From: Deroplatys truncata
Taxonomy: Eukaryota; Arthropoda; Insecta; Mantodea; Mantidae
DNA length: 64,000 nt
Direction of reading: 5' to 3'
NCBI GenBank assembly: GCA_030765065.1
Contig: CM060988.1
Coordinates: forward strand, 198,956,565-199,020,564
How positions within the stretch are numbered: position 1 is the first letter of the stretch; each line of letters starts with the position of its first letter. The notes beneath the pieces are model-generated. The model was not told where the DNA came from. It ran no database searches and worked only from the letters and a program-made list of their open reading frames with translations. Shown in pieces: positions 31,791 through 64,000 of this stretch. The translations under genes were made by a program, and so were the position numbers.

Positions 31791-31865
31791 TCTTCTGCCA
31801 TAGTGCAATGCAGTTGCACTCGAAAGCTCGCTTTCTTTACACAATCTCGCCAGTCACCGAAGTAG

Positions 31866-31873
31866 TGACGTCA
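31866..31873. promoter_or_regulatory. CRE (TGACGTCA)
   Basis: A perfect 8-bp cAMP-response-type palindrome, the consensus for CREB/ATF bZIP dimers. A weaker half-site TGATGTCA lies at 32352-32359. Confidence 0.55.
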
Positions 31874-32176
31874 TAGCTGGCTGTCCATGGTCCCACGCGC
31901 AGCGCAGGGGAGGAGATGGATTTATTTCGAAAGGATTCTCCGCGCATGGAAATGAACGCGTGAATTCTCCAATGTCTGCACAGCTCATTTGCCGTTAAGA
32001 GTGGAGGAGTTGTTACCAACTTTGACCAGCAAGCCTGGCCATATGGTTTACTCGACTTGTTCTAATGCATTCAGATGAAACGTTAGCTCCGCGGCAGCCG
32101 ATTGTTCCTCTTTACTTATAATCGCGGCGGCTTCCATTTCCCTCAAGAAAGGAATTTAAACGGCGCCAACAATGCT

Positions 32177-32378
32177 ATTGGCTCAAAAGATGCGGATTTG
32201 ACCAATCGCTGCGAATGTTTCCACACATAGCGACGAGATGGATTCAGCGTTCATTCACCCAATAGAAGGACATGACGCATTTACCCTTGAGCGCTGCTTC
32301 GTAGCAATTCAAATGTTAACCGTAATTTCATTGGCAGTGTGCTGAGACTCATGATGTCACTAGGCGGAAGAAGCCAAT
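32177..32378. promoter_or_regulatory. Five-CCAAT-box cluster
   Basis: ATTGG at 32177-32181 and 32330-32334, CCAAT at 32202-32206, 32259-32263 and 32374-32378. Multiple boxes with variable spacing on both strands fit NF-Y binding. Confidence 0.55.
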
Positions 32379-32976
32379 GGAAAACGCGGAAGCAGACGAG
32401 TTCGGCAACTCTACAGACACATCAGACACATCAATCAACGCCAGTATTTTGCCAAAAGCCACGCCTCGCTTAGTCAATAAATTTTGAATATTGAGTAGTG
32501 GAAGTGTAACAGCAGTGTTCTAAAAATATTTTTGTGCATTAATGGTCTAATCATAAAGGTTTTTTACATGAATAACCAAATACAAACTGGTGTGTTGCTG
32601 CCGAGAAGCTGGCCGTACTCCTGTTCTGTGCGAGGGAGTCACGGGACTGGATCTACCGTCGTGCGCGACCACGCCAGTTCAGTGCAGTGTCTGCCATGTT
32701 TGAAGATATCAATGCGGTGGGGCGTGCTTCCTAATGACTCGTGTTTGGTATCAGTGAATGATGTGTTTAATGAAATTGCAACGTAGAAGATCGGCTGCCG
32801 CGAGCGTTTTATGATGTATACGCATCTCTATTGTAACCATTTTGTTGTGTCATAAATAGTGTTATACATGGTTCGGAAAATTTAGTATTTACATCGGAAG
32901 GCTGCAGTAGCATTTACGAAGTGAGGTGAATGTTTTGTTTTGCTTCGTTTTATATGTGTACACACGAGTAGTGAGG

Positions 32977-33198
32977 ATGCTGTTATATTGTAGGAGAATA
33001 AATAAGGAATTAAAAGAAGATATCGCGCATTCTAAAGGTGTTTTAAACGGCAGTTTTGTTGTTATTTTGTTTCTCGTGCTTTTGACCCGAGTGGGCGAGT
33101 CCATTTCTGCGTACATCGGGGGTGTGAGCACGACAGATGTGTTGAAAATACAGAGCGACGGAACCGTTAATCGTTTTACCTTGGATTTGGTATGCTGA
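32977..33198 (+). CDS. Short open frame in putative 5' leader (uncertain)
   Basis: A 73-codon frame starting ATGCTGTTATATTGTAGG. It has one hydrophobic stretch (GSFVVILFLVLLTRVG) that could span a membrane, and no domain I recognise. It lies between the promoter and the better exon candidate, so it may be an upstream ORF or chance. Confidence 0.2.
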   Translation: MLLYCRRINKELKEDIAHSKGVLNGSFVVILFLVLLTRVGESISAYIGGVSTTDVLKIQSDGTVNRFTLDLVC

Positions 33199-33796
33199 GG
33201 AATGTGCCTGAAGTTATGAAAATAAGATAGAATCGAGCCATGGCCATTGACAGCAGCAATCGCGATATTTGTGTGTTTTGGAAACAGCCAGCACCTTCCG
33301 AACACAATATTTGTTGTGAATGCCCGGGTGTTTTGATTACTCTATTAAATTGACGCCGTCCTTGCATAGGATAAAAGACCATTAACCACGTGCAGACTAT
33401 AACCTGAGGTTTTTACACAAACAGGAATGATCACATAGGCCTATATGAAACTGACTGTTGCTGGAACTGCACCCATGTTTGTTTACATTTTTTATGATGT
33501 TAGGAGTGGACAGCAGTTGGTTATTGCTTAGCAGGCCTTTTAAAGGTTAGAAACATGCCACCTGCAGTCAGTGTTACTTTTGTTTACATTGATGGAGCAT
33601 CTGCTGTGGAAGACATCCATGTGTAAGGCAGATACTTTCACTCGAGTGTGCTGTAGTAGGGGTGTGATTGACATATTAACAGAATATTTATGTGTTAAGG
33701 CCTTTGTGTCTGTAGTTTCGATTGTGAATTGAGAAAAAGTTGACAGTAATTCTGGAGCCAAACCTGCAGTTTGGTGGCAGCGTTCCTCATGGTTCG

Positions 33797-33932
33797 ATGG
33801 TGCTCTTGAATGCGGAGGTGTCACCGGTGGCCACACGGGCAATGGACAGCTCGGTGGTGGTGCAAGCCAAACGTCCGGATGCTTGGCACAAGCATGAACA
33901 ATTGATGCTGATGGAGAAGCAAAAACCAAAAT
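33797..33932 (+). CDS. Putative first coding exon of host gene, product unknown
   Basis: An open frame starts at ATG 33797 and runs 45 codons to a strong splice donor, T|GTAAGTCA at 33932/33933. An in-frame stop lies upstream at 33725, so the start is 33797 or the internal ATG that begins MDSSVVVQAKRPDAW. The peptide includes KRPDAWHKHEQLMLMEKQ, is charged and not low-complexity, and its codons are GC-richer than the surroundings. It lies 1.4 kb downstream of the CRE/CCAAT region. No homolog is recognised and no acceptor or second exon was found in the window, which would imply an intron of more than 30 kb. A non-coding leader exon is the alternative. Confidence 0.35.
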
Positions 33933-36250
33933 GTAAGTCAAGAAAATGGTTTACAATTTCTTTTTAGATGTATGAAAATGTGCAGGAGGAAAATAAGAGT
34001 TTGCGGTGCAATTGTTGCAGCTGAAACATGCTAGCAAATTTAGGCATTGAATATAATTCCAGTGCAAAAGAGATAACTGGGCAAGAAATGGAGGATCATT
34101 ATGGGTCATACAACTAAAATGCTTAGTACTTAAAGCTTATTTTGAAAATTGCTTGTGGCCTTTCTCTGAAAAAAATAACTGATTGTTGTGGGTGTCGTAG
34201 GCAACTGGCATTTTGTAGTAACATGAGTGTGGGTTGTTCTTGTTATGAAATGTCAACTAAATGAACAGAGTAATTAGGTAGGAGAGTGATGTGTTGTCTG
34301 CTAGTAATATGGCTACCACATAACAGCTGATGGTAGTATTACCAACCTAACAATTATCAGTGCATGGAATGTTAGCCATAATGGCCAGATACCTATAGCT
34401 ATACTAATAATGTATGTGTGTGTGGTGATTTCGAGAATCACTCAACTAATTTTAATTGTCGTTTGAGTAACGAAAAGCAATGTTCTTCTGGAGGACATAG
34501 ACTATAAAATATTTTCACAAATTTTGGAATTCCCATTCATTTAATATGAATATCAAAGGATTTTTTTGACATTTTATTGCGAATATGACAGATATTTAAT
34601 GACTTCCAGCTGAAGGGGTTAAATAGGGAGACTTAAAATTGATTTATTGGGTGGGGGAGCTGTATGTTGTGTTCATATGAGGAAATTTCCCTTTGATTTC
34701 ACTTCATTTTAAGGTGTATGTTTTGATATGAATTTCGTAAAAATTATTACTTTTGGCTTTTATAGTCTGGCAAAAAGAATATTTACTCTCTAACTTTCAA
34801 AAAACTTCTACCCTTATTTTCAACTCCTAACAAACAAATTGATCCTCTTTGGGCTATCTAGACAAAATTTTCTGCACTTACACCAAAGTATCCTATAAAA
34901 ATTGTAGGCTACCTTACATCTCTAAAAAAACAGACATTATTGTGTATGCAGGTAGGAGGTATGAAATTTTAAGAAACTTACGGGATCATGGATTTTTAAT
35001 ATACATTAATTGTGTAGTATCCTGGATTCTTAAATTGTATAGGAGTTGTTGCTTTATCGAAAATATTGGGGCCCTTCTGGCGACCGCTTAGCTTTTGCAT
35101 AAATCTTGTGAGAAGATATTGCGAACGTGATGAAAAAAAAAAAATGGCTCATGGAATGTCATAAAGCAAGGAAAATGTAGCTAAAGTGGATTATTCGAGT
35201 TTAGACGTGCAGATCCTACAGCTACGCCCTGCTGTCGCTCCACTCCTCTCCTAAAAAACCTCCCTCGGCTACGCTTTGAGGCTGAGGGTCCTCAATCCCT
35301 CGACTATGCCTTGCGGCTTAAGGCCCTCAATGTTACAATGTTGGCAGCAAAATGCTGACAGCAATGCTAACATGATGCAAGTGCATGTGTTACATGTTGA
35401 TAGCAAAAGTGCTCACTACCCACATACGAATAATGGCCAAAAAACTACCCCTGCCATATTTTCAACTGCTTGTGTAGAAACCTTCACTGTTTAACCCTGT
35501 AGTCAGAATATTGTATCTGGGAAAAATCATAGGTTGCACAACCATTTCCAAAAACTATCCAACCTTTATTTTTAGTCAATATAGTATCTGAAATTTTTTA
35601 AAAACCACCTGACTATTTTCAACCACTTATAGATAAGACTATTCTGCTTGTCAGAATATCATGGCACAAATTTGTGCACTTGAGCAATGAATAATGGTGA
35701 AAATTATGATACGTTACAACTTAACATTTAAAAAAAAACCAAATACCCCTACTAATATTTTCAAGCCCTATGTACGAGTTTGCTCATTTGATCAATCTGG
35801 AGATAACCTGCTTTAGGTATGAGTGAAAATTATAGCAGAACTTTCTAAAAGCATCTTTATCCTTACTTACATGGTGCATCTAAGACAGGTAGTGGAAGAT
35901 AAAGCAGTAAAATGTAATGGAGAAGGAACAGGCAATCCAGGGTTCATTAATAAGGAGAGTTTTTCTTTTAGCCTAATTTACTAATTCTTTTGTAATCCCA
36001 AAGTGAATATGTATTCTATACATGTACATATACACTATTAGAAGTAAATTTAATTATATACTTTATACATAAACAATAATTACCTTGCTCAGCTCAACTT
36101 TTCAACATGTGATGCAAGATTTTTTTCTTATAATTCCAATGGGATTGACATTTTTGTTTTTCAAAATCCAGCATTAAAATGTGTTCTAATCTATATTTAT
36201 GATTACTTTTTGACAAACTGCTTTACTTGTTGTTCCTTGTTAATTTACGC
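33933..36250 (+). other. Putative intron start, AT-rich
   Basis: Follows the donor at 33933. It contains ill-defined repetitive phrases (CCTTATTTTCAACTCCTAAC, TATTTTCAACTGCTTG, TATTTTCAAGCCCTATG) about 300-600 bp apart, suggesting an old tandem or dispersed repeat. Bases 35195-35350 resemble the interior of the MITE at 37012. Confidence 0.4.
35195..35350. repeat. GC-rich block shared with MITE at 37.0 kb
   Basis: Shares GTTTAGACG.GCAGATCC, CTCCTCTCCT..AAAAAAC and CTCGGCTACGCTTTGAGG with 37306-37470. It is probably an internal remnant of a related element. Confidence 0.65.
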
Positions 36251-36640
36251 TTCCACAAGTAGGGAGAACTTTGTGCCTCTTGTAGTTCATGCAATTCAGA
36301 ACTGAAGAGTTGCCAACATTTGAGTGAAAAACATGGCGAGATTGAAATTAGAAGCAAAATTGAGGTGAGCTGCAGTAAAATGACAGCTTCCTGTGGTTTC
36401 GAAATTTAGCCCAAGGTTAGGTTATGACACCTTGTCTATGTATGAACGGGATGCAAATAACCAGTTCTCATAGATTACACTTGTACGGTTGGGTTGGCAG
36501 TTTCTTCTATGCATGCACAATAGTAACAAGATGGAGTCCTTTGTTGACATTCTGCAATTAAAGAAACTCTTAAAAAGGGACGGAGGAGGGTTGCAGGGTG
36601 TCCGTGCTCACATCTTCTCTTAAAGTCTCTCTTATATGCA
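36245..36640. repeat. Dispersed repeat, pair with 50.95 kb
   Basis: Landmarks GCCAACATTTGAGTGAAAAAC, GTGGTTTCGAAATTTA.CCC, GGAGT.CTTTGTTGAC and CTTAAAAAGGGACGGA recur in the same order at 50950-51425. A shorter relative lies near 38340-38510. Confidence 0.7.
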
Positions 36641-37011
36641 TTTCATTTACTTACATCTCCAGTTTTTACATTTTGTTTTAGGTGACAAGTAAAGCAGCTT
36701 TATCTTACTTTATAGTGTGTACTTTGATGCTGGAGGTAATTCCTTAATGTAATTTTAAAAAGTGGGTAACCTTATCTATGTGCCGCTGAAACATGGGGCC
36801 TTACTTCTGCTACATATGTCACTCTCTACCTGCGTGCAGTTTCCAAATGTGCAAACAAAATGCTGCCAACATATGAATAGCTAACACTTGTGGGGCGAGC
36901 TTATGTTTCTTAACGATGTGAATGATTCATTATTTAAATACCTAAGTGTAGGTTTTTGGATTCACGGAAAGTTAGCCTTAGGTTAGGTTTTCTTTTTATA
37001 TAAGCTTATTT

Positions 37012-37570
37012 GGCTAGATTGTCATACTTTTGCCCGCATTAGGTCTTCGTTTTGCCCACCTAAATTTGGAATAAGGAAGTGAAAAGTAATGAAATTAATT
37101 ATCTTAGGAGTGAGTGTGGTCTCTCCAATATCTGGTGCCCACTTACCTACCCGTTTTAGGTGTTTCACTTATATAGGCAAATAGCGTGAGGAAGTCAACA
37201 AACGTAGCCATTTTTCCGTGCAAAGTGGGTACTGCCAACCTAAATAATCAGTGAAATGCACTGAATATGCGGTGTGCTGTTGTTTTGTGAATGTGAATCA
37301 TTGGAGTTTTAGACGCGCAGATCCCTGGGCTACGCTCTGTCGTCGCTTCGCAGTTGCGACCTCCAACATACCTATCGGCCGCAACTTGCTGCACTCCTCT
37401 CCTTCTAAAAAACATCCCTCGGCTACGCTTTGAGGCTGAGGACCCTCAATCTCTCGGCTACGCTTTGAGGCTGAGTATCTTACCGGCTTCGGTGGCATTA
37501 TTCATATGTTGGCAGCATTACGTTAGAGCAGCGTAAGACCTAATGGGGGCAAAAGTATGACAATTTACCC
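37012..37570. mobile_element. MITE with 24-bp TIRs and 8-bp TSD
   Basis: A 559-bp non-coding element. Left end GGCTAGATTGTCATACTTTT and the reverse complement of the right end GGGTAAATTGTCATACTTTT differ at two positions over 24 bp. An exact 8-bp duplication GCTTATTT flanks it (37004-37011, 37571-37578). The interior carries three copies of a CTCGGCTACGCTTTGAGGC-like motif. The 8-bp duplication with GG ends would fit a Merlin-like or unclassified cut-and-paste family. Confidence 0.85.
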
Positions 37571-37734
37571 GCTTATTTTAATTATCAACCAGTGGTTACA
37601 CCAAAGCACGCTAATGATGTTCCATGTTTATCATATAAGCTTAGGTTTGTAAATTCACGGGAGGTTAGCCTTAGGTTAGGTTTTCTTTTTATATAAGCTT
37701 ATGTTAATTACCAACCAGTGGTTACACCAAAGCA

Positions 37735-38032
37735 GCTTTCGTCCTCCATGAACTAGTGGTACCGTGCTAGTCTCTAGTTCCCAAGGTCGCGGGTTCAAAC
37801 CCGGCAGAGGGCGATGGATTTTTTTGGTCGTAAAAATCCTTGGCATGGCTTCCTTTGGAAGGGAAGTAAAGCCAATGGTTCTGTGTCGTAGATCTACGAC
37901 ACATAAAAGACCCTCAAGCCTGGTAAAGAGGCCTCTGAGCAAAATTGCCGGTCTTTCATGCCCAATATAGAATGGGATGCTAAGGACCATAGTAGTTAAA
38001 GAGCGTCCATAACAAAAAAAAAAAAAAAAAAC
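37735..38032 (+). mobile_element. SINE-A with poly-A tail
   Basis: Tail is AACA followed by a run of about 17 A. An 8-bp duplication CCAAAGCA lies at 37727-37734 and 38033-38040. The box-B-like GGTCGCGGGTTCAAACCC is intact. It sits in the middle unit of the 120-bp tandem repeat. Confidence 0.85.
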
Positions 38033-38125
38033 CCAAAGCAACTAACAATGCTCCATGTTTATGATATAAGCTTAGGTTTCTGAATTAACGGTAGGTTAAC
38101 CTTAGGTTAGGGTTTTTTTTAAATG

Positions 38126-39835
38126 CATTATTGAGAGTACAGTGTTGTTGCATTACTTTATATCAATGGGAAGCGAAAATAAAGAACAATAAGAAATATG
38201 GAAAATATCGCCAAATTAATTTTGCTGTGTGTTATGCACTATCAATAGTATAGTGTATTTGCATCACTTCCTATCTGTGGGAAGCAAAAATAAAGAAGAA
38301 TAAAAAGTAAGGAAAGTATCGCCTACCTGTGGATTTGAATTCTCATTTAGGTTGACAGTTTTCCTTGGTGCATGTGCAGTAGCAACAAGATGGCGATATT
38401 TGTTGTCATTACAGCCTAATTCTGCTATAAAAGTAAGGCATCTGAAAGGGAAGGGCAGGTGATCACCAGGTCTCAAGGAGACAACATCTACTCCTAAAGT
38501 ATTTATACTCTTTAGCAATGACTTTTTGATACATTTTAACCACTGTGGCACATAAGCAATTTAAGCCAAAAAAGTTTATACTTATTTATTTTCCTGCCGA
38601 ACAAGTAGTCGTATTGAAGAATACAGTGCAGCCATTTTATTCTAGCTTAATTAAAGCAATGCAGCCAGCAATCTTGTTTATCCCTAAATTACACTAACTA
38701 GCTAACTGCACAAGTACTAACTTGTTAACATAACTATTCCTAGCTTACTAAATTTGATCATTAAGGGTTGGAGGGCAAAACTGTGCTCAGAACACAGCAC
38801 CCATGTTCTCAGCTGATCCTTATCAAACAACAATTGAAGTCATGCCTCTGTAGTGAACTGCGAAATCAATTTTATGAATTGGATAAGTCATTTCTAGAAT
38901 TTTTATATACTGTAAGAAAAAATCAAACCTTTGCTTCTCATATTACAATAAATTTTCGACTGCAAGCTCGCATGTGTAAAGTTACAAAACCTGAGAGGGA
39001 ACGGGATTTTCCAAATATGATCAGCCACTAATTGCTTCCACATGTTTTTCCATAATTATTGTAGTGCAGAATGTAGTTGGGAAAAATTGTTCGGTAGTTG
39101 GCTGGGAGTGTTACAAATTATGTAATACGTTTGGCTGCAATGCTACAAGCAATATGGTTAGTTTTCTTCTGCTGCTTAAGTTTGCTTGTACATGTGCTGC
39201 ATAATTTAACCTTCAGGTTGTGCTTAGAAAAACATCTGATGCTTGAAAGTGTTTCCTTTTTGTCAAATGTTTCTTCACTATACCCGGTTTCCTCTTACAT
39301 TACTCTGCATGTTAACAAAAGCATATGCTTCTAGTCTTCTCTTATTGACTTTCAGGATGACTTCTTACAAATAAGCTCTCTATTTAATACAGTTAATTTG
39401 TTCTCATGTATTCAAAGAATCTAAGGAATCATAATTTTAGCAAGCGCACACAGAGCTAAGTGCATGGATGCATTGGCTATTTGTACACCTTAGTATTTGA
39501 AACAGGGGTGAGGTTACTTCTTATGTGTAAACTTTTAACCCACTGAGGGCAACTGACGTATCTTTGCATAGCATATGCTTTAAGTGGCATATGGCAGAAT
39601 CCTGCCTATTTGTCTGGAACTCAAACCTCACAGTTGTAATGTTGATATATACCATGTTTTGTAGCAGGAAAACACCTGCTCTACAAGGCAATGGTTTTGT
39701 TTAAAGAAAGCTGCTATGTTTGTGAATGAGGATAGGCTTTTATTTAAAAATGATTGTTTTCAGCACTTCCAAATGATCAGGCTTAAGGGGACCCTCAAGT
39801 GAAAATTGAATATATTTATTAGCTGTGGGTGCTGT
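38126..39835. other. Putative intronic DNA, mostly unrecognised
   Basis: Bases 38130-38330 contain a local duplication (GGGAAGC.AAAATAAAGAA.AATAA). Otherwise no gene or element is supported. Confidence 0.4.
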
Positions 39836-40069
39836 CAGGGTTGTCAACTCATACTATAATTATGGGGGCATACGATAATTTGAATGTTTGTATGATACCG
39901 GCTAAACATTCAATAATATCCCTGTCATGTTTGTCACAACAGGAAATGAAATGAATCTAACATACAGCCTTCATACTGATATTGCATGACTCCAATCTGT
40001 CTCCAGCCCTTTGAAGGATCCACCATGTACTCCACAAAACCTCTCATTGCCCATGTGCCTAGAATTGTT

Positions 40070-40330
40070 AACCTCAGTGACGATAATGCTGTCCAATAAG
40101 TTGATCAATGGAGAAAAGTTTGAATAGCTGACATTCCCTGGGAAGTAAAGAACATGTCTGAATGTGATAGATTTGAAGAACTAGTGAAATTTTCATTAAC
40201 AGTGATTTCATTGCCCCATGCTTCTTGTGAAGGATTTTTTTTGTAAAGTGTGTTTGATAAAAACTAAAATTCGGAAATGACCAACATTCGATGCAGTAAA
40301 TAGGCTCATCAGCCAGTTTGTGAAAGAATG
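40070..40330 (+). pseudogene. hAT-like transposase C-terminal remnant
   Basis: One + frame, with stops, reads IADIPWEVKNMSECDRFEEL then VKFSLTVISLPHASCEG, which resembles the hAT dimerisation domain core (usually SLPHSNADVERIFS). A shifted frame continues IKTK-like. It has stops and at least one frameshift and no N-terminal part. A CAGGGTTG-type end at 39849 could belong to it, but no matching right end was found. Confidence 0.5.
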
Positions 40331-40515
40331 TATTGGGTCTGAATACTTCTAAGTCACAGAGATGGTGTTAAACCTTATAACAACAACAAATTTGTTTACT
40401 GCTGCAGCAGTTGAGAGTAAAGATGAATAGATCAAGGAACACATGTTAAATTAATTAAATTGAGAATTATTTATGGACGCTGTTTAACTGCTATGGTTCT
40501 TAGTGCTCCATTCTA

Positions 40516-41552
40516 CAGAGTGAGCCAAAAGACTCCGAACCGCCTGCGCAGTGTTTTTCCTGTCTGCGTTCTTGGCGCTCGTTGCCATCTGCCGCTATCA
40601 TATAAAGGTGCGTATGAAACCATACAACATTTTTAAAACTAGTTTTAAAGGCTTTACTTACCAACTTTACGAAAGGAGATGCTGAAACTGGCCACCATCG
40701 TTGTCCATACATTTTTGGCACCTCTTTAGGAAACTATCCATCACTCGCCATAGTTCATGTTGAGAAATTTCCTGGCAGATATTTTGTTTTAAGTCTTCCA
40801 GGGTGTGTGGATTTGCCTTGTACACTTTATGTTTTAAGTTACCCCGGAGGGGTATTTTATGAACAATATTACCAGCTGTGATGTGTTTTTCCACTGGGCG
40901 TGTGGAAATATGATAAAAACATAATGCATGCTGCTATAAACAAAGTCACACTGTTGTGGTTTTGCTGTGCAGTATTGAGTTGACGGTGATGTGATGTAGT
41001 TCAGTTATTACGAGTTATTTATTATTTTGTACTGTACTTAGTCACAAAGTATATTATGGCTCAGTATATGTTTTCTACTGCACAGTGTGTATTTATTTAT
41101 AATTTGTATGTGTTAACTCAGTCAGTTCGCCAAGTGAAAGTACGATTTGCAGAAAGATTTCTAGGTGTAAACGTTCCAGGCCGTACAACAATCCATGAAC
41201 TTTACAGTAAATTTCAGGCCACAGGAAGTGTTCAGGCTAAGAAATTTAAAAGACGGCATTTGGTTCTTACCGAAGAAACATTAGACGACATCGGTCATTG
41301 TTTGGAAAATTCTGCCAAAAAATTCCATGATGGATAGTTTCCTAAAGAGGTGCCAAAAATGTATGGACGACGGTGGCCAGTTTCAGCATTTCCTTTCATA
41401 GAGTTGGTAAGTAAAGCTCTTAAAAGTAGTTTTAAAAATGTTGTATGGTTTCATCCACGCCTTTCTATAATAGCGGCAGACAGCAACGAGCACTGAGGAC
41501 ACGGACAGTAAAAACACTGTGCAGGCGGTTTGGAGTCTTTTGGCTCACCCTG
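40516..41552. mobile_element. Mariner-type fold-back derivative 2, nested in SINE
   Basis: A 1037-bp element flanked by TA (40514-40515, 41553-41554). Left end CAGAGTGAGCCAAAAGACTC; right end GAGTCTTTTGGCTCACCCTG. Both ends, for about 230 bp, are inverted copies of the transposase 3' end. The minus strand at 40667-40894 encodes LEDLKQNICQEISQHELWRV and FLKRCQKCMDNDGGQFQHLL. The + strand at 41056-41337 encodes the N-terminal DNA-binding region, then runs at a deletion into a second short C-terminus. The element is non-autonomous but its ends are well matched. Confidence 0.9.
41056..41337 (+). pseudogene. Mariner transposase N-terminal helix-turn-helix region (DUF4817-like)
   Basis: An intact 93-codon frame from MAQYMFSTAQCVFIYNLY through VRFAERFLGVNVPGRTTIHE, LYSKFQATGSVQ and HLVLTEETLDDIGHCLENS. 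This is the DUF4817-type DNA-binding domain seen at the N-terminus of such insect transposases. The catalytic domain is deleted. The downstream 41330-41400 encodes the last residues MDSFLKRCQKCM in another frame. It could still be made as a DNA-binding fragment if transcribed, but nothing shows that. Confidence 0.75.
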
Positions 41553-41859
41553 TATAATGGGCGTGAAAGATCGGTAATTTTGCTTAGATACCTCTTTATC
41601 AGGCTTGAGGTTCTTTTACGTGCTGTAAATCTATGACACAGGACCACCGGCTTTACTTCTGTTCCGAAGGATGCCATGTTAAGGGTTTTTTATGCCTGAA
41701 AAAATCCATCGCCCTCTGTTGGGTTTGAACCTGTGACCTCGGGGGCCAGAAGTTAGCAAGAAACACGTGTGCTAATCTTGGCTGTCATCAATATTGTAAG
41801 TACCATAAAAATGAACTTGGTTATCGTCAGCATTATTTTAATATTATTACATTTGTTCA

Positions 41860-42115: not shown

Positions 42116-42119
42116 CCCC

Positions 42120-43145: not shown

Positions 43146-43162
43146 GCATTAAGATAAATAAT

Positions 43163-43477: not shown

Positions 43478-43494
43478 CATCAAGATAAATAATC

Positions 43495-52059: not shown

Positions 52060-52067
52060 TGCTGACA

Positions 52068-52693: not shown

Positions 52694-52704
52694 TGCTGAC
52701 ATGT

Positions 52705-54210
52705 GCCATGCTTCGGCAAAATGAATCAAATTCTTAAAGACAGCGGGCGTTTGCTTATTTGTAATTTGTAGAGGTGCGACGCACTTTCAGTATAGTTTGG
52801 TACCATCGTTAGTTTCTCCACCAGCCACAGGAATGTGCTGCCAGTGGAATTCTGCAGTGTCATTGGATGGGAGATAGGAATCGAAAACTTAAACAGTTTG
52901 CCATGTGGACATGCCATATTGATGTATTGAGCACGAATTGCACTTTAATCTAAAATAGGATGTGAAGCGAGATTGATTTGGATTCCATACGTAGATAAAC
53001 AATGTAACCAAACATGTATTAACAGAGTTGATAAGCTTCAATATTCTGTTCATCCATAACCTCTTTATGAGGTTATGGAGGACAGAATCTGGACAACATG
53101 ATACCCATTATTGTAATGAAGAACTTTAAAGAAAAGTGCAGTTTTAAAAGCTGGTGAAAAAAAAAGAGATGTTTGATAGAGATGTAGAAGTAAGATTAGA
53201 AATTTAAAATGTATAAATACACCTATATCTGAATTCATAACCAAATCGTCAAGTATAGCGGTTATGTTACTAAAGCACTTTGGCTCACCTCTATAGAGCC
53301 ACTATAATTTAGCTCAGTTTTCCAGGAAGAGGATTTTACAAGTTAAATGGGCGCTGCACTGGAATTTAAGTGTGTTGTGTGTATTTATTTGTAATTGTAT
53401 ACTTATTGGTGAATCCGTAAAAGAACTGGTCATGCATGATAGAGCATGTGTACCTTAGTTGTTTCAGGTGGCTATGGCTCACATTCAGGAGGTCTCAGGT
53501 TCAAACATGGCCAATCTTCCTGGAATCCTTTTATGATTTCAAGTAAATATGGAACTGAATACATCTGTGCCATTACCCAGTTTCACCACAATGACACATA
53601 CCGGTTACATGGCCTTTGCCACTTTTCAGCAGATGGTTCAGGTTTATGCCAGAGTCATGCTGTGGAAAATAAATAATCACAGTGTTATTTATACAGACAT
53701 ACAAAAGAAGCTATTGTAATTATATGTTTACAGTATTAACATATTAATGACATCACATATATGATAAAGCCTCTTAGTACTAGCAGAAATCTGGTTTTCT
53801 CTGGTTACATATCTAGTGTCTCAAGATAAATGTTGGCTGCCCTGATATGCAGCATCAGCCATCTTGGTTTTTGGTAAATTGAATAAGGCTACATCATGCA
53901 TAGCATAACTTAGAGAAAGCAAGGGGGGCTTTTTGCCATTCACTGCAGTATTTCCAATTTAACATTTTACTTTTAAGTAAAAACATAGCATTGTAGAGTA
54001 GCTCTCAGCTAACATTGTTTACATTATGAACTTACAATTCTCAATAGTGACAAAACTGCTAGTATGTGTTTACATTTCCACAACAGGGAGCTGGAAGTGC
54101 TGTTATTGCAGCGTTTACTTTCTTTGTTTTTCATCATTGTGGGTAACATAATTAGTGGACAAACCCTGGTATTAACTATTTGAGATGAGTAACAGGAAGT
54201 GGATAGAAAA
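52705..54210. other. Putative intronic DNA with possible old SINE
   Basis: Bases 53440-53690 carry a box-B-like GTCTCAGGTTCAAACATG and an A-rich end GGAAAATAAATAATC, suggesting a decayed tRNA-derived SINE. The rest is unrecognised. Confidence 0.4.
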
Positions 54211-54212
54211 AA

Positions 54213-54305
54213 GCTGATGTGTTTTCTTCTACTCACTCTTCCACAAATATTCTTTAAAGAAGCTTACGCTTTTAGGTATTTCTTATTAATTGAGATAAAC
54301 TTCCA
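54213..54305 (-). repeat. ACTTT-family terminal fragment
   Basis: Only the first 95 bp of a reverse copy (CTGATGTGTTTTCTTCTACTC, TTAATTGAGATAAAC). It abuts a forward copy directly, as at 3628. Confidence 0.7.
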
Positions 54306-54307
54306 TT

Positions 54308-55075
54308 ATATATTTTTACTTTCTCTACTACGTACATAAGTAGGTATTGCATTTCACCCAAAAATTTGATACTGAGATTTCACCGGAAATATATGTTTTG
54401 AGGCCCCCTAAATCCAAAAAAAAGAGCATTTTTAGAAAAAATGTTCATTTGTCTGTGTACAGCATAACTCAAAAATGAAAAGTCTATAAATGCCAAACTT
54501 GCTATTTAGGTTCAGTATCTTCCAAAGATTTGAAGCGAAGATTTTCAAGAAAATCCTCCCCTGTCCCAAAATGCCCTTTGCAATTTTTGAAGCTTTTTAT
54601 TTTGACAAATAAAATGCACATTTTTAATTTTTTGGGAAAATAGCTTATGAAATTCGGAAGGAATTTTGTGTAACTGGTAAACGTTAAGAGATACACAAAA
54701 AATGTAGATCTATTTAAAACACACAATTCATTTTCAAATAACTTTGTGGCATCAGCCATTTCTGAGATATCTCTTAATATTGGCTTCAATTGTTCAATAG
54801 TTGTAATTTTTTTAAAGTCCTGTCGTTCAGTTGCCACTTGTGGTGTAATGGAAAAGCTGGAATTTTAAAGCCATGCCGAACCACTTTTAAATACCTGACT
54901 ATTGATTTCGTTTCCGCTATATGTCTTGTGCCTACAATGAAACTACATCTGCAGATGTTTATCTCGATCAACATGATGCAGAGAGGAAAATAAGCTTGCT
55001 TAAGCACATTTGTAGAAGCTGTATAAAAATAATAATGCATGTAGAAGGTCATGAGATATAAACACATCAGAAGTT
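54308..55075 (+). repeat. ACTTT-family repeat, CpG-depleted
   Basis: Starts TTTTTACTTTCTCTACTACG and ends ATAAACACATCAG. Many sites that are CpG in upstream copies are TpG here (AAAAATGAAAAG for AAAAACGAAAAG). Confidence 0.8.
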
Positions 55076-55540
55076 TTTCTTCTCTAGAATATCTGAATAG
55101 AGTTCCCGTATTTAAAATAGAGAATACAACTTATATTAGGGTTACATGATGTCACGTCTTTGAGAAACTAAATTGTTTTTCTAAGAATTTTCATGAGGAA
55201 AGAATATCCTCCAAACATTGTAGAGTTAGTGCCATTTCATTTTGTCTTTCTGGCCACTTAAAAGTCCAAACATAACATTTAAATGGACATGTTTCGGGTT
55301 TGCTTATAACACGTGAAATTTTAAAACTTGATTGTTCTTATTGTTTTCTGAGTTTAAATGCTCTTGATTTTGCAATCTTTGTTCACTTTCATATTTACGG
55401 TATTGTTTCTTTGTGGGTGGATGAAGAAGCTAAAGCGCCTTCTCCTGATATCATGTATAGTTTTGGATTTAGGATTTCAATAATTTATTACATGATTGAT
55501 TTTTAGAAAATTAAAAGTTTTATTATTATTAATATTACTT
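55076..55540. other. Putative intronic DNA, nothing recognised
   Basis: No supported feature. Confidence 0.4.
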
Positions 55541-55994
55541 TTACTTTCTCCACCACATACATGGGTAGAGAAGATTTTGCATTTCATCTAAAAACTTGAT
55601 ACTGAGATTTCACTGGAAATATATGTTTTAGCATTTTTGGAAAAAAGTCTGCTAGTGTGAATGGCATAACTTAAAAATGAAAAGCCGGATAAACACCGAA
55701 CGTGGTATTTAGGTTTGGTACCTTCTAAAGATGCGACACAATTTCCAAGAAACCCCCCACCCCCCCAACTACCCGTTATATGGAAGGTTTTTCAAAATAT
55801 GATTTTGATTAAAGTTCCATATATTTGTATATTTATAACAAATTAAATGTATATCTTGAAGTTTCTGGGAATAGCTTCTTAAGTCCTCTTCATTTGAAAG
55901 GAATTTTATATGCTCTTGTATAACTAGTAGACATTAAGCAATAAACGAAAACATACTGCACAGGAAATGTAGACCTCTTTAAAACTCAATCTTC

Positions 55995-56073
<79 letters not shown>

Positions 56074-56268
56074 TTGATAGCGTGTTGCATCTGGTTCTGA
56101 AACATTTGACTATCTATTCCCTTTATATCTGTAACAAACTGTGAAATGTAGCTATTTCTGGAAAGGTTTATCTCAATTAAAATAAACTTTCATAAGAATA
56201 ATTTGTATACCTACTAATAGGCGATAGAAGGTAGAGAAAGTTATGTTAATGTGACACATCAGATTTTT
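55541..56268 (+). repeat. ACTTT-family repeat, tandem copy 1
   Basis: Starts TTTTACTTTCTCCACCAC and ends GTAGAGAAAGTTATG...ACACATCAGATTTTT, where the next forward copy begins at once. It carries an (ATT)n array at 55995-56074. Confidence 0.8.
55995..56074. repeat. (ATT)n microsatellite
   Basis: About 26 ATT trinucleotides within the ACTTT copy. Confidence 0.95.
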
Positions 56269-56610
56269 ATTTTCTCTTGTCCCTGCTAATAGTATGTAGA
56301 GGAAGTGTTGTATTCTACCCAAAATTCAATATCAAGAGTCCACCAGAAATAAACGTTTTGAGATCTAATAAAATGTTTTTTAGAAATAATCTTATTGGTT
56401 CAGTAAGTGAGAGAGCGAGCGAGCAACATGACTTAAAAATGAAATATTGGATGAATACCAAACTTGGTATTTTTAAGTTCATCTTCCAAGGATGTGATAC
56501 TAGGATTTTCAGAAAAGCCTGACTATCCTTTATATGAAAAAAGTTTAATTATTTTTTATTTTCTCAAAAATGATTCTTATGGTTTTGATTAAAAACACGA
56601 TAAAGAGTTG
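56269..56610 (+). repeat. ACTTT-family repeat, tandem copy 2, 3'-truncated
   Basis: Starts ATTTTCTCTTGTCCCTGC, runs to about GGTTTTGATTAAAAACACG. Confidence 0.7.
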
Positions 56611-56699
56611 AACCTCATTTATATGTTTCTGGTTCCCATGTACAAAATCTATTAATTTAGTTACTCATTTATGCATTGTGTTTATGTTACGTTAAAATA

Positions 56700-58026
56700 T
56701 AGAGAGAGCCAAAAAGCTATGAACTGGCTGCACAGTGTTTTTCCTGTTTGCACCCTCGGCGCTCGTTGCCGTCTGCTGCTATCATAGAAAGGTGCAGATG
56801 AAACCATACATTTTTGAAACTACTTTTAAAGGCTTTACTTATCAACTTTATGAAAGGAGATGCTGAAGCTGGCCACCGTCGCCATCCATACATTTTTGGC
56901 ATCTCTTTAGGAAACTATCCATCACTCGCCATAGTTCACGTTGAGAAATGCTGGCAATTTTCTGGTAGATATTTAGTTTTAATTCTTCCAGGGTGTGTAG
57001 GTTTGTCTTGTACACTTTATGTTTTAAGTTATCCTCAAACACGCCCTCAATTGTTCTCATCGAAATATTGGCTGTATGAGCTGTTGCAGAGTCTTGTTGA
57101 AAAAGGGCAAAATCGCGCTCCCTGACTGTTAATTCTCTAAAAGGGGGGGGGGAATAGTATTCACATATGTATGGGCATCAACTGTTGACTCGAAAAAAAA
57201 TTGGTCCTATAACTCTTACTCCTCTCATGGTGCTCGATACACCAATTTTTTCGTTATGAAGGGGTACTTCATCAACTATATTAGATTTGTCAGAGCTCCA
57301 ATAACGATTATTTTGTGTACACACATATCCATGAAGGTGGAACCAAGCCTCGTCCGTGAGAAATATTAAATATGGGTCTATTTTGCCATTGTATACACTA
57401 TTGAGACTCCACTCACAAAATGTGCACCTAATTATAGGATCACATGGTTGAAAAGTTATTTTATATGGTTTTAACTTCAGCAATTTGGTAGCTCCTTGCG
57501 CAGAGCCATAAGAAATGCCTGCCTGTTGTAAAGACGCCTAAGTGATTTTGGGGGGGAATTCTCCAAACGATGACCGATGTCGTCTAATGTTTCTTCGGTA
57601 AGAACCGAACACCGTATTTTAGATTTCTTAGCCTGAAACTTCCTGTGGCCTGAAATTTATTTTAAAGTTTATGGATTGTTGTATGACCTGGAATTTTTAC
57701 GCCTGGAAATCTTTCTGCAAATCGTACTTTCACTTGGCGAGCTGACTGAGTTAGCACATATGAATCATAAATAAATACACGCTGTGCAGTAGAAAAGATA
57801 TACTGAGCCATAATATACTTTGTGACTAAGTACAGGACAAAATAATAAATAACTTGTAATAACTTAACTACTTCACATCACCGTCAACTCAATACTGCAC
57901 TTCACACTGCAGAGCAAAAGCACATCAACAGCGTGACCTTGTTTATAGCAACAGTGCATTGTCATGTTCCCACATGCCCAGCGGAAAAATACTGCGCAGA
58001 CAGTTTGTAGTTTCTTGGCTCTCCTG
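56700..58026 (-). mobile_element. Mariner-type transposon, near full length
   Basis: A 1327-bp element. Left end TAGAGAGAGCCAAAAAGC at a TA (56698-56699); right end GTTTCTTGGCTCTCCTG near a mutated TA. The ends are short inverted repeats, as in a normal element, unlike the two fold-back derivatives. Only about four CpGs remain in the first 105 bp, with most others changed to TpG or CpA (CTATGAACTGGCTGCACAG). Confidence 0.9.
56780..57811 (-). pseudogene. Mariner-type transposase, decayed full length
   Basis: Read on the minus strand: MAQYIFSTAQRVFIYDSY and VRFAERFPGVKIPGHTTIH (DUF4817-like helix-turn-helix), then the VRTEEHL-like linker, IFLTDEAWFHLHGYVCTQNN with a catalytic D (57178-57483), VPLHNEKIGV, the degraded QQDSATAHTAN region, and LEELKLNIYQKIASISQREL with FLKRCQKCMDGDGGQLQHLL at the C-terminus. 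Frames change several times and there are stops. The RSPDL...LWG block with the last catalytic residue is missing between SMRTIEGVF and DNLKHKVYK, a deletion shared with derivative 2. Expected length is about 350 residues. Confidence 0.85.
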
Positions 58027-58204
58027 TTATATTATAAATAGTATCTGTATACTGTATCCTTACTGTCACAGTACAAAACAGTAGGCATATTGGGCGAGGC
58101 ACCAGTATTTTAATATTTTTAATCTTTAATTATGAATAACAGCACTGACTTGCATTTAAGTACTCTAAAGTAGTGTATTAGGTTTATTATTTACGAGTAT
58201 CAAA

Positions 58205-58575
58205 AGGACTTTAAAAGAATGACAGGTTATTGAGTAATTCAAATCTATAATAAGAGATATCTCAGAAATGGCTTATGGCAAGAAAAAAAAAGCATTTGAA
58301 ATAAATTGTGTGTTGTAAAGAGACCTACATTTTTTCTGTAGTAAGTTTTCATCTATCGCTTAACATTTATCAGTTGTACACAATCTCTGGATATTCCCAG
58401 AAAATTCAAGATATACATTTTATTTGTCAGTAAATATCGTTAATATCTGGTATTTTAATACAAATTGTTAGCCATTTTTGAGAAAATTGAAAATTTTCAT
58501 GTAAGGGGTAATTTGGAATGTGGGATTTTCTTAAAAATTTTCATGTCACATGTTTGGAAGATAGAATATAAATAA
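58205..58575 (-). repeat. ACTTT-family repeat, both ends missing
   Basis: Starts near GGACTTTAAAAGAATGACAG and ends at TGTTTGGAAGAT. The block that reads CTTCGTGTCGCATC upstream reads TTTTCATGTCACATG here. Confidence 0.7.
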
Positions 58576-58579
58576 CAGA

Positions 58580-58920
58580 GATTATAAGGATAGGGGAACA
58601 GCTAAGGAAAATTTAATGTTAGATCTCCAGTAGGATCCCTAATTCTATGTACTGATGTTGATAACCACGATGTTGTATATATTCACACTAGAGGTATCTC
58701 AAGTGTAGCAGTAACAACAAAGTAACAAAGAATTTGTTTATGTACAGAGTGAGTCACCTAAAACTAGCAGTGCAAAAATAGAAATGAATGGCATGAAGGT
58801 GTTCATTTAAGTAGATGATATAGGTCATGCAACTATGATTTTCAACATAAACTTATGATTTCTTAAATGGAAACCATGTATTATTTTTGATGCAGTTAAT
58901 AACAAAACAAGATGATCAGG
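58580..58920. other. Putative intronic DNA, nothing recognised
   Basis: No supported feature. Confidence 0.4.
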
Positions 58921-58924
58921 GTTG

Positions 58925-59480
58925 GTATTTATTGTCTAAGTTCATCTTCCAAAGATGTGACATGATTTTCAAAAAACTCCTCCAATCTCAAACTATCCTT
59001 TGTATAGAAAATTTTTCAAAAATTTAGATTGTCTCAAAAATGGCTCTAATGATTTTGTAAAATATTTTCAAGAAAAACAAAATGTATGTCTTGAATTTTC
59101 TGGGAATAGCCTCTGAAGTTCTCTTCATTCTGAATGTGTTTTGCATAACTGGTAAACCTTAAGAGATAGACAAAATTTTACTGCATAAAAAAGTAGGTCT
59201 TGTTAAAGCACACAATTTATGCCAAATAAAGTTTTTTGTGTTAACAATTTCAGAGATATTGTTTGTTATTGGTTTGAATTCTCTCTTGGCCATGCAAAGT
59301 GAATGGAATTTCAAAGATTGTTGCCATTACATAGCGACAGGAGATATCCAATAAAACAATTTGTGCAGAAGTTTGTCTCGATTAATATGAAGTAGATAGA
59401 AGTATAAGCTTTTGTAAGAATAGTTTGTTAAAGAAAGGGGAAGGAAATTCACGTAAATGTAACACAGGATTTTTTTTTAT
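58925..59480 (+). repeat. ACTTT-family repeat, 5'-truncated
   Basis: Starts GGTATTTATTGTCTAAGTTC and ends ACGTAAATGTAACACAGG. The expected GATGCGACACG reads GATGTGACATG. Confidence 0.7.
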
Positions 59481-60040
59481 ATATCAATTAATTTTTTAGT
59501 GGCTGGAAATCATATGTTGTTTACAGTATAATTGATAACAGCGAAAGTAATTTTAAGAACAGATTTTGTCCATTGTAATATGTAAATCACAGCACAATTA
59601 ACCACAACGTGAAGTTAATGCTTGAGACTAAATGACGTGGTTGAACCTCAGAATGTGTGCTAATATGTGTTTCATTGTGTTTGAAGTGTCTATCTGGCAT
59701 TATAATTTCTTGTTATGTAATTAACCTACTGTGATACCACAAATGTACTCTTAAGGTTGTTTTCCATGTTGTCAATTACGTCAAAAATAGTAGCTGTTTT
59801 CCATTAAAAAAAACATATGTTTATGTTGAAAATCATATACGCTTATGGAAGTCGCTTTCCAATTCATGTTTTTATTTCAGAAACATTTGTAGTAATAGTT
59901 CTAGGTGATTCGTCCGGTATAAAATGTTTAGCTTTGGAAGCTAAAATAAATTCATTCATTGCTAACAATTAATTTTGGTGAAATAAAGCTAAGCTTATTG
60001 ACTGAGTCACACAGTTATCCCAATATACAGTTTGTTAAAT
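59481..60040. other. Putative intronic DNA, nothing recognised
   Basis: No supported feature. Confidence 0.4.
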
Positions 60041-60044
60041 CTAT

Positions 60045-60430
60045 CGTTTATCACAATCATGGTCCCCCTTCACTGGCTACAACAAAATATATAGCACCAC
60101 TAGTGACTTCCAGTAAATGGTATACAGTACAATAATAGACCAGAGCTTATCTGTGTGTCTACCCTTTATCGTGATCATGGTCCCCTTTCACCGGGCTGCA
60201 ACAAAATATATAGCACCACTAGTGACCTCTAGTAAATGGTATACAGTACAACAATAGACCAGAGCTTATCTGTGTGTCTACCCTTTATCGTGATCATGGT
60301 GCCCTTTCACTGGGCTGCAACAAAATGTATAGCACCCTAGTGACCTCTAGTAAATGGTATACAGTACAATAATAGACCAGAGCCTATCTGTGTGTTTATC
60401 CTTTATCGTCGTCATGGGCTGCAACAAAAG
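60045..60430. repeat. 117-119-bp tandem repeat, about three units
   Basis: The landmark ATCATGGTCCC recurs at 60057, 60174 and 60293 and weakly near 60412. The unit contains ATATATAGCACCACTAGTGA and AATAGACCAGAGC.TATCTG. Confidence 0.9.
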
Positions 60431-60537
60431 TATAGCATACATATTTCAAATTTGATTCCACCACTAGTAATGTTTAATAACCAGCATTTATGATATGAAC
60501 ATTCAGTAATGGACAATCTCTCTTTTTTTTTAACGGG

Positions 60538-60720
60538 CAGTCTTTATTTCTATGGTTCTTAGCATGCCATTCTATATTGAGCATGAAAGACCGGACAGAG
60601 ACATCTATCAGGCATCAGGTTCTTTTATGTGTCGTAAATCTAGGACATGGGATCACCTACTTTGCTTACCTTCTGAAGAAAGCCAAGCTAGCAGGTTACC
60701 CCTAGATTACAAGGTCAACA
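60538..60720 (-). mobile_element. SINE-A, old degraded copy
   Basis: Keeps CTATTGGTTCTTAGC-like, CATTCTATATTGAGC and GTGTCGTAAATCTAGG; the tRNA head is unrecognisable. Confidence 0.65.
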
Positions 60721-60794
60721 TGGACGATGTGATTTATAAATTCAACTTTCTCATATAAATTGTTTATCCTATTCAATTGCTGCACGATATGCTT

Positions 60795-61130
60795 CCCATT
60801 TTTGTGAGTTTTTCTTAATAGTTGATGTTATGAAGCATAAAATATGGACTAGAATTCTTATAGTCTGGATACTGGTTTTTTGCTTTAATACATGTTTATT
60901 GTGGTAGCAGGAGGAATTTAAGTAAGTATGATAGAAAGAAGCAGTACTACCAGGTCTTCAAGGATTCTTATAAAACAGAATTGCCATTTATTGTACAAGA
61001 AATTTTTGTACATTTACTGTGTTGAACATTTTTGACATTCTAAATTTCATGTCAGTGCAAAATTATTACGCTTTGCTGGATAGGGGAATGTTTTAATATC
61101 AGGTTGTTGACAAGTATGTGAATATATGCA
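60795..61130. repeat. Dispersed repeat, pair with 47.3 kb
   Basis: See 47312-47690; the same landmarks occur in the same order. Confidence 0.7.
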
Positions 61131-61201
61131 GATGATATTACACCAGACACATTTTTTGTCCCTCTATAGTTTGTCCAACATTCCCTGATAATTTGAGCAT
61201 G

Positions 61202-61495
61202 TCGTCCTCCGTGGTGTAGTAGTTACCATGCTAACCTCTAATTCCTGAGGTCGCAGGTTCAAACCCGGCAGAGTCAATGGTTTTTTTCGGGCGTAAAAAT
61301 CCTTAGCATGGCTTCCTTCGGAAGGGAAGTAAAGCTGGTGGTCCCGTGTCGTGGATTTACGGCAGTAAAAGAACCTCAAGCCTGATAAAGAGGCCTCTGA
61401 GCAAAATTACCGGTCTTTCATGCCCAATATAGAATGGGATGCTAAGGACCAACGTAGTTAAAGAGCGTCCATAAATAAAACTCAATTTAATTTAG
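61202..61495 (+). mobile_element. SINE-A, complete
   Basis: Head TCGTCCTCCGTGGTGTAG with box-B-like GGTCGCAGGTTCAAACCC, full body and tail CTCAATTTAATTTAG. An exact 10-bp duplication TTTGAGCATG lies at 61192-61201 and 61496-61505. Confidence 0.9.
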
Positions 61496-61505
61496 TTTGA
61501 GCATG

Positions 61506-61860
61506 CGTATTAAAGATATCTGACTATTGCTGTGTTCCAATAAACATCTGATCATGTCAGAATCAGTAGGGAAGAGCACATACCGACTGACTGCTAACTT
61601 GTTGTCAAACCAATGCATGAACCATTCTTAAATCCATACATGAGGTGATCAGAGACTGTGTGTCAGAACGAACCTTATATATTTAGTATACATTAGTAAT
61701 GAACTTGTTTACAACATTCATAGGTAATACTGCAAAGCTCACCTATATAAGAAGCTTAACTACATACTTATGTAGAATTAGACTAAAGATTGCTGTTTGA
61801 TTACATACATCTGCAGTAGTTGATTAAATGTCAATTAAAGATCTAAATGTGACCCACGTG
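61506..61860. other. Putative intronic DNA, nothing recognised
   Basis: No supported feature. Confidence 0.4.
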
Positions 61861-61864
61861 ATAG

Positions 61865-62157
61865 TTTTTTTTTTTTTTTTATTTATGGACGCCCTTTAAC
61901 TACTATGGTTCTTAGCGTCCCATTCTATATTGGGCGTGAAACACCTGTAATTTTGCTCAGAGGCCTCTTTATCAGGCTTGAGGTTCTTTTACGTGCCGTA
62001 AATCTACGGCACGGGACCACCGGCTTTACTTCCCTTCCGAAGGAAGCCGTGCTAACGATTTTTACGCCCGAAAGAATCCATCGCCCTCCGCCGGGTTTGA
62101 ACCCGCGACCTTGGGAACTAGAGGCTAGCACGGTACCACCAGTCCACGGAGGACGAC
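61865..62157 (-). mobile_element. SINE-A, complete and young
   Basis: Oriented minus, with a poly-A tail (poly-T at 61865). Body CpGs are nearly all intact (CCGTAAATCTACGGCACGGG read on +), so it looks like a recent insertion. A 6-8 bp duplication around TGATAG flanks it. Inverted relative to the copy at 61202. Confidence 0.85.
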
Positions 62158-62159
62158 AT

Positions 62160-62720
62160 GATAGAGTAGATTATCTGTCCATGACTTCGCTGTTACATCA
62201 TGGCAACTATGTATATTGCTTGGAATATCATGTAATTGGCATTTGTTTTTACAAGCATTCTCAGTGAAGTAAGAACTTAGAAAAGTCAGAGCCAACCTAT
62301 GACTCGAACATATTCGAATTCTTGTGTTAATCCATTTTAGACATTCAGGAGATGGTAGTAGGATTGCGATTGATGTAAAAGTTGTTGGTAAAGGACTGTT
62401 CCTCTCCCACTGCACCGCTTATAGTGCAATTCAGTATAGCCTACATCCGTTGGGAAGAGCAGTGAAGGAAATTATTTGTTTCTGACACCTATGCAGAAAC
62501 TTTGTTCCATTTTAATATTAGTATATGTTTGTCACTTCAGAACTGAAAACTGGGACACATGGAAAATTTTTATTTCTAACATAGCAACGCTTTGGAAATA
62601 ACATGTCTGTCTCATAATTTGTAGGGCCAAAGTTGAATCATGAATGTGTTATTGATTGGTTTTTGCTGTGCTTTAATGTTTTGATAGGTTTCAGTTGCCC
62701 AATTTCAAAACCAGTCAGAT
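62160..62720. other. Putative intronic DNA, nothing recognised
   Basis: No supported feature. Confidence 0.4.
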
Positions 62721-62724
62721 GTTT

Positions 62725-63260
62725 AAAGAATTTCACTATATGCTAGCCTTGAAATTCCAAAATTTTTCCACGACATTGCGAGAAACAACTGAATAGTGAT
62801 AGCACTTAGTAAGTATTGACAAATTCAAACAAATAATAATGGATATCTTGGAATTAGCTCATATCACAAAAAGGTGATTTGAAATAAATTGTTTTAAAGA
62901 GATCTACATTTTTAGTGTATGAAGTTTTTGTCTATCTCTTAAAGTTTACCGCTTATACAAAATTTCTTCCAAATCAAGAGGACTTCACAGGCCATTTTCA
63001 GAAAATTCAAGATATACATGATTGACATGTAAATTATATGGTATTTTACTCCAAATCGTTAAGAGCCATTTTGAGAAAATAAAAAATTTCGAAAAGTATT
63101 TCATGTTTAGTGTAGTTGGGGTGGGGGCCATTTTCTGGAATATCTTTGTGTCATACATCTAGAAGACGCTGAATTTAAAATGTCCAGCTTGGCATTTATC
63201 AGACATTTTGTTTTTGAGTTATATTGTTCACATACATGGACCTTTTATTATAAATCCTTT
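62725..63260 (-). repeat. ACTTT-family repeat, truncated arm
   Basis: Starts near ATATGCTAGCCTTGAAATTCC and stops after CACATACATGGACC and TTTATTATAAATCC, lacking its last 100 bp. The expected CGTGTCGCATC reads TGTGTCATACATC. Confidence 0.75.
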
Positions 63261-64000
63261 TTTTACTTTCTCTACCATGTACCTAGTAGGTAGTTATATT
63301 GCATTCCACCCAAAAATTTGATACCAAGATTTCACCGTTAATACATGTTTTAAGGCCCCCTGAATTCAAATAAATGTGTGTGTGTGTGCCTGTGAACAGC
63401 ATAACTCAAAAACGAAAAGTCAGATAATTACCAAACTTGAAATATAAGTTCAATATCTTCCAAAGATGTGACACAAAGATTTTCAAGAAAATCCCAGACC
63501 AGATTAGCCTTTACATGGAAAATTTTTCGAAATTTTGGATTTTCTGAAAAATGGCTAACGATTTTGATTAAAATACCATATATTGAAGATATTTACATAA
63601 CAAATAAAATGTATATCTTGAATTTTCTGGATATAGCCTATGAAGTCCTCTTCATTCAGAACAAATTTTGTATAAACTTGAATAATTGGTAAACATTATG
63701 TGATAGACAAAAATGTACTATACATTAAAAAAAATAGATATCTTTAAAACACACATTTTTATTTCAAATGACTTTCTTTGTGCCATCAACCATTTCCAAG
63801 ATATCTATTGTTAATGGTTTGAATTGTTCATTACTTGGTCGTTCTTTTAAAGTCTTGTCAACATTCAGTTGTTTTACACGATTGTATGGAAAGAGTGTGG
63901 ATTTTTAAGGCCAGTGTATAGCATCTAGTTCTTAAACATTTGACTATCGCTGTGCCGTTTATACGTATAACGAAATATGTAATATAACTGTTTCTGCAAA
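63261..64000 (+). repeat. ACTTT-family repeat, opposite arm, runs off window
   Basis: Starts TTTTACTTTCTCTACCATG and follows the family to TTTCTGCAAA at the window end. With the preceding copy it forms another head-to-head inverted pair. It has an open frame of 75 codons at 63468-63692 shared in part with other copies. Confidence 0.8.

Follow-up and report, generated by a model that had tools for sequence, protein, structure and literature searches.

The 64,000-nucleotide window analysed here comes from the mantis Deroplatys truncata (assembly GCA_030765065.1, contig CM060988.1, positions 198,956,565 to 199,020,564; coordinates below are those of the window) and consists of two parts that differ sharply in CpG content while carrying copies of the same transposable elements (TEs): the ACTTT family, the 3' part of a mariner element, and short interspersed nuclear elements (SINEs). 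A CpG-normal and presumably unmethylated flank (1143..33389; CpG/(CpG+TpG+CpA) 1126/5285) is followed by a CpG-depleted, putatively germline-methylated domain (33390..64000; 476/4914) that runs off the window end, so that CpG depletion and the accompanying excess of TpG and CpA are confined to one side of a single break. Promoter-like DNA lies immediately to the left of this break and a candidate coding exon about 0.4 kb to the right. The locus bears on the question of whether TEs in invertebrates are methylated as targets in their own right or as a side effect of the host gene.

In 2-kb bins, the observed/expected (o/e) ratio of CpG ranges over 0.59-1.11 for the first 17 bins (to 34 kb) and over 0.30-0.68 for the remaining 15. 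A one-break Poisson model placed the break at 33.5 kb with a log-likelihood ratio (LLR) of 55.1; the maximum LLR in 2000 block permutations, run on a coarser scan grid, was 33.8. When every CpG, TpG and CpA was scored as CpG or not, the base-resolution one-break fit was best at 33,389/33,391 (2-LLR support interval, 33182..33470), and the fraction CpG/(CpG+TpG+CpA) was 0.209 to the left of this position and 0.097 to the right. A penalised multi-break fit yielded only two segments in the 64 kb, with the junction at 33,416/33,418; the step is single. To compare unique DNA, self-similar repeats and tandem arrays were masked and the sides were divided at 33.5 kb. In the sequence left after masking, CpG o/e fell from 0.89 on the left to 0.41 on the right, TpG rose from 1.10 to 1.31 and CpA from 1.12 to 1.33, and the other dinucleotides were nearly flat (left/right: GpC 1.14/1.18, CpC 1.07/1.13, ApC 0.96/0.99, TpA 0.86/0.81). 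By these values, the step is specific to CpG and is as clear in unique DNA as in transposons. Base composition and the GC-rich minisatellites of the left side are ruled out as its cause because the step persists after masking.

The CpG-intact, promoter-like stretch is at 31501..33389 and would act on the plus strand. Each of the four 500-bp bins between 31,501 and 33,500 has a CpG o/e of 1.01-1.13, and the next two drop to 0.46 and 0.32; 24 CpGs lie within 32,917-33,389, and the next one is found at 33,643. Five CCAAT/ATTGG boxes (32177..32378) make up the densest 300-bp window for this motif in the 64 kb. The candidate coding exon (33797..33932, plus strand) begins about 0.4 kb downstream of the break and contains CpGs amid CpG-poor surroundings. 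Its open frame spans 45 codons and one further nucleotide (136 nt, phase 1) and is directly followed by a candidate splice donor, GTAAGT (33933..33938, plus strand). Judged from the sequence, this frame is a candidate for the first coding exon of a transcription unit that probably has a very long first intron. The original prediction let CpG decay start at the putative promoter itself; a step near 33 kb is indeed present, but the CCAAT cluster lies about 1 kb upstream of the break at 33.4 kb. The accompanying proposal of a plus-strand unit with its start near 32-33 kb is in line with the CCAAT boxes and with the candidate exon and its donor, as well as with the GC skew and the substitution asymmetry described below. 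A single and very sharp break might also arise from a contig misjoin at about 33.4 kb between methylated and unmethylated regions of the genome. We consider such an artefact highly improbable, given that the position of the break makes functional sense, with promoter-like DNA on one side and a candidate first coding exon on the other.

Self-BLAST and profile searches served to collect the transposon families. With a profile length of 885, the ACTTT family has 29 hits in the window, 18 left and 11 right of the break, among them the best-scoring copy of the family on the left (14087..14945, plus strand; 14/23 CpGs kept) and two copies on the right (54312..55071, minus strand, 3/18 kept; 63256..64000, minus strand, 6/22 kept). 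CpG loss rates were obtained from a likelihood that was conditioned on the choice of columns (ascertainment) and scaled by each copy's own non-CpG divergence. Copies had to offer at least 5 informative columns and at least 60 other columns, so that the rates cover 22 of the 29 ACTTT hits at kmin 2 (12 left, 10 right) and 20 of the 29 at kmin 3; a Mann-Whitney test on this family compared 13 left with 10 right copies. Non-CpG divergence is alike on the two sides (transitions, 0.079 left and 0.075 right; transversions, 0.073 and 0.064), yet 89 of 181 CpG sites are kept on the left compared with 20 of 131 on the right (kmin 3). At kmin 2 the loss rate rises from 3.71 on the left to 13.02 on the right, and at kmin 3 from 2.44 to 12.19. 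Relative to divergence, the loss of CpG is thus 3.5-fold (kmin 2) to 5-fold (kmin 3) higher on the right, a value reached in 0 of 150 label shuffles at either setting. Summed over pairs of copies across the break, which are not independent, CpG is present in the left copy only in 529 cases and in the right copy only in 116. The two strings that had been quoted as an example of this contrast are both present, at 14,696 and 58,538.

Mariner 3' copies differ across the break in the same manner. The two left copies (27929..28529, plus strand, 16/16 scored CpGs kept; 28538..28695, minus strand, 12/13) together keep 28/29 scored CpGs, and the three right copies (40510..40853, plus strand, 11/17; 41328..41558, minus strand, 6/15; 56695..57221, plus strand, 7/17) keep 24/49. 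The CpG numbers in the first 105 bp that had been counted by hand, 13 at 27.9 kb, 8 at 40.5 kb and 4 at 56.7 kb, are exact, and the two additional copies contain 12 on the left, at 28.5 kb, and 5 on the right, at 41.3 kb. The loss is, as had been stated, mostly from CpG to TpG or CpA: in the three right copies, 34 of 59 CpG sites read TG, CA or TA, and 1 reads otherwise. The loss rate is 0.56 on the left and 16.0 on the right (29-fold; 5 copies), and the true labelling alone among the 10 possible ones reaches the observed value, 0.1 being the smallest attainable p. Two copies of the other half of mariner, both on the right, were excluded from the rates, and a mixed mariner profile was not used for them. 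Divergence is not higher among the right copies (0.041, 0.049 and 0.060) than among the left ones (0.057 and 0.113).

We give next to no credence to the explanation that the right-hand copies are merely older and hence further decayed. It would fit the SINEs at 41.5 and 60.5 kb, which are diverged by 0.137 and 0.160 compared with 0.074 and 0.078 for the left SINEs, but it is contradicted by the similar non-CpG divergence of ACTTT copies on the two sides, by the greater CpG loss in right mariner copies that are no more diverged, and by the same step in unique sequence. Copy age is accordingly rejected as the cause for ACTTT and mariner, the two families in which equal ages are observed together with unequal CpG loss. 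Among the other elements that had been named, the SINE at 41.6 kb is decayed, with 7/16 CpGs kept, but it is more diverged as well. Between the element at 43.2 kb and its relative at 24.5 kb, CpG is found only in the left copy at 7 sites, only in the right copy at 2 and in both at 5. The SINE at 61.9 kb (61868..62156, plus strand), within the depleted domain, is young as claimed and keeps 19/20 CpGs.

When the copies of the three families were ordered along the window (34 of 42 copies taken in), the best joint break fell between the copies centred at 28.6 and 37.9 kb, with a likelihood-ratio test (LRT) value of 78.9; the runner-up was the gap at 37.9-40.7 kb (LRT 73.6). This break is built on changes between copies rather than on regional composition, and its best gap includes 33.4 kb. 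The original prediction was staked on a step at 32-34 kb once copy age was controlled, and the step remains in both the composition and the TE copies. Because members of these families have largely escaped decay on the left but not on the right, whichever their orientation, it looks as if position is decisive rather than the element. The presence of these families on both sides at matched ages amounts to a clean natural experiment, which favours position over targeting of the element.

The right side also shows a strand asymmetry. In unmasked 1-kb blocks, mean GC skew is -0.013 on the left (24 blocks) and +0.064 on the right (23 blocks; p 0.003), and it is positive in all four right-hand sub-blocks. 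Read on the plus strand, substitutions in the right ACTTT copies are more often A>G than T>C and more often C>T than G>A. The ACTTT family has an element-intrinsic transition bias, the sign of which flips with orientation among the left copies. An unbalanced reading of the asymmetry was dropped as being partly an artefact of this bias, and because the split by orientation had exposed the bias, an orientation-balanced test was adopted. The balanced asymmetry, based on the 11 right ACTTT copies (4 in plus orientation) about 12-30 kb downstream of the break, is +0.53 on the right (confidence interval (CI), 0.32 to 0.78) and -0.05 on the left (CI, -0.25 to 0.12); the difference was reached in 10 of 2000 permutations (ACTTT only). 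For the non-template strand of mammalian transcripts, one report describes more A>G than T>C changes and an excess of G and T, with C>T outnumbering G>A over the first 1-2 kb only (PMC2927911). Here too, A>G, C>T and an excess of G+T are found on the presumed non-template strand; the C>T part, in contrast to mammals, is seen about 12-30 kb downstream, as it is in the fish of that report. The asymmetry suggests, with moderate weight, plus-strand transcription in the germline, with the mammalian sign taken as the reference; the direction in insects may differ.

Methylated cytosine deaminates to thymine. If the DNA to the right of about 33.4 kb had long been methylated in the germline, throughout the residence of the transposons there, CpG would turn into TpG or CpA faster in every scored family and orientation, and other sites would evolve normally; the promoter-side DNA at 31.5-33.4 kb and the left flank, if unmethylated, would retain their CpGs. 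We regard it as likely that a plus-strand transcription unit, CpG-methylated in the germline downstream of about 33.4 kb, has its 5' part in the right part of the window. Methylation, as the cause of the decay, would then follow transcription-linked chromatin along a gene with a long intron. The TE copies, being of differing age, could serve as dated recorders of one germline methylation border that was fixed in place through the life of the families, a notion that we believe and doubt in about equal measure.

Several observations weigh against this reading, some of which concern the distribution of CpG. The left end of the window (1-1142) is CpG-poor too, with 12 CpGs among 156 CG+TG+CA, and was not separated as a segment of its own by the penalised multi-break fit; a further methylated unit may have its tail here. 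The left ACTTT copy at 565-1142 is decayed, with 3/16 CpGs kept. Within the depleted domain, there is a CpG-richer patch at 37,001-37,500 (22 CpGs, o/e 0.85), perhaps a young insertion or an internal promoter; part of this patch resembles 35,237-35,318. SINEs taken alone give no significant difference (loss rate 3.4 left and 6.9 right, 2-fold; 3 of 21 labellings; 7 of 8 hits scored, with two left copies only).

Other such observations concern the strand. TA skew is -0.019 on the left and +0.027 on the right (p 0.03 for the difference, p 0.17 for the right side against zero), and the ACTTT asymmetry falls to 0.45 (37 of 2000 permutations) once columns containing TG as well as CA are removed. 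For stickleback and medaka, PMC2927911 reports a reversed A>G/T>C component of the asymmetry and a C>T component that spans the gene. Poly(A) signals on the right have no strand bias (AATAAA, 39 plus and 42 minus; ATTAAA, 22 and 32, compared with 19 and 31 on the left), donor-like motifs show little (26 plus, 20 minus), and the minus strand has more acceptor-like tracts than the plus strand (15 against 6). The last of these counts would suit a minus-strand unit that ends at about 33.4 kb, the step being its 3' border. We nevertheless consider this arrangement very improbable: GC skew and substitution asymmetry carry the mammalian non-template sign for plus-strand transcription, the CpG-intact stretch with the CCAAT boxes resembles a 5' end, and a sharp 3' border is less expected because termite methylation continues past gene ends (PMC5111047).

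The remaining points against a plus-strand unit come from protein searches. The candidate exon, a short open frame, has no Pfam match and no PDB match. In the six frames of 33.8-63.8 kb, no Pfam row was at or above the cut-off, although short exons could escape such a search; the nine rows below the cut-off were of transposase and helix-turn-helix types, together with unrelated weak ones (E-value limits of up to 1 in part of the scans and up to 0.1 in the remainder). The failure of these scans to reveal a further exon of the proposed gene downstream would be in keeping with a different structure, in which the right side is a broad methylated block, comprising several genes on either strand or repeat-rich chromatin, with its edge at 33.4 kb. 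Methylated blocks in the termite reach hundreds of kb (PMC5111047). We judge a broad block unlikely in view of the distance of its edge from the candidate first coding exon (within about 0.4 kb) and from the CCAAT cluster (1 kb), and of the positive GC skew in every right-hand sub-block. Repeats as such are not the target either, since left copies of the same families retain their CpGs.

Footprints of gene-body methylation in CpG content are already well known; a plus-strand unit methylated from about 33.4 kb onwards would add an unusually clean internal control. A methylome study of the termite Zootermopsis nevadensis describes blocks in which CpG is depleted everywhere but in promoters, with introns and many intronic repeats methylated, the repeats more so than the intron that contains them (PMC5111047). 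The depletion reported here fits the same intron-inclusive type and likewise spares the promoter-like stretch; in contrast to the bisulfite measurements of the termite study, methylation is read here from sequence decay, at one border and with age-controlled TE copies. In Cnidaria, TEs within gene bodies are reported to be methylated (PMC8857917, PMC13345969). One of these argues that TEs themselves are the targets, young ones most of all, with intronic or intergenic location also of importance (PMC8857917); here, by contrast, copies of the same families outside the unit keep their CpGs, which points to position as the main determinant. The other describes how methylation is restored in the germ line of Nematostella under the guidance of transcription-associated chromatin (PMC13345969). 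We found nothing on gene bodies in the available part of a report on TE methylation in termites (PMC12909921). A limited look at the literature, which does not prove absence, turned up no paper with age-controlled copies of the same TE families on both sides of one insect methylation border.

If the proposed interpretation is true, a TE copy is methylated by virtue of its landing place and not of the identity of the element, and both long-term methylation and the direction of germline transcription can be read from one genome sequence without an epigenomic assay. With a genome-wide, age-controlled test of this kind, long-term methylation of the germline and the direction of transcription could be mapped in species that lack a methylome.

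Additional scans of the window yielded few recognisable features. No PDB match at E 0.01 was found in the three plus-strand frames of 33.8-48.8 kb, and no Pfam match in five of the six frames of 18.8-33.8 kb. ARAGORN found no tRNA, and Rfam gave nothing at gathering scores. A decayed transposase of the Tc1/mariner type is located at 48,941-49,881, with DDE_3 and HTH_Tnp_Tc3_2 matches below the Pfam cut-offs. The minisatellites with units of 113, 75, 89, 105 and 138 nt are all found to the left of 28 kb (11,552-28,000), and the sole listed array on the right with a unit longer than 50 nt is one of 119 nt at 60.1 kb.

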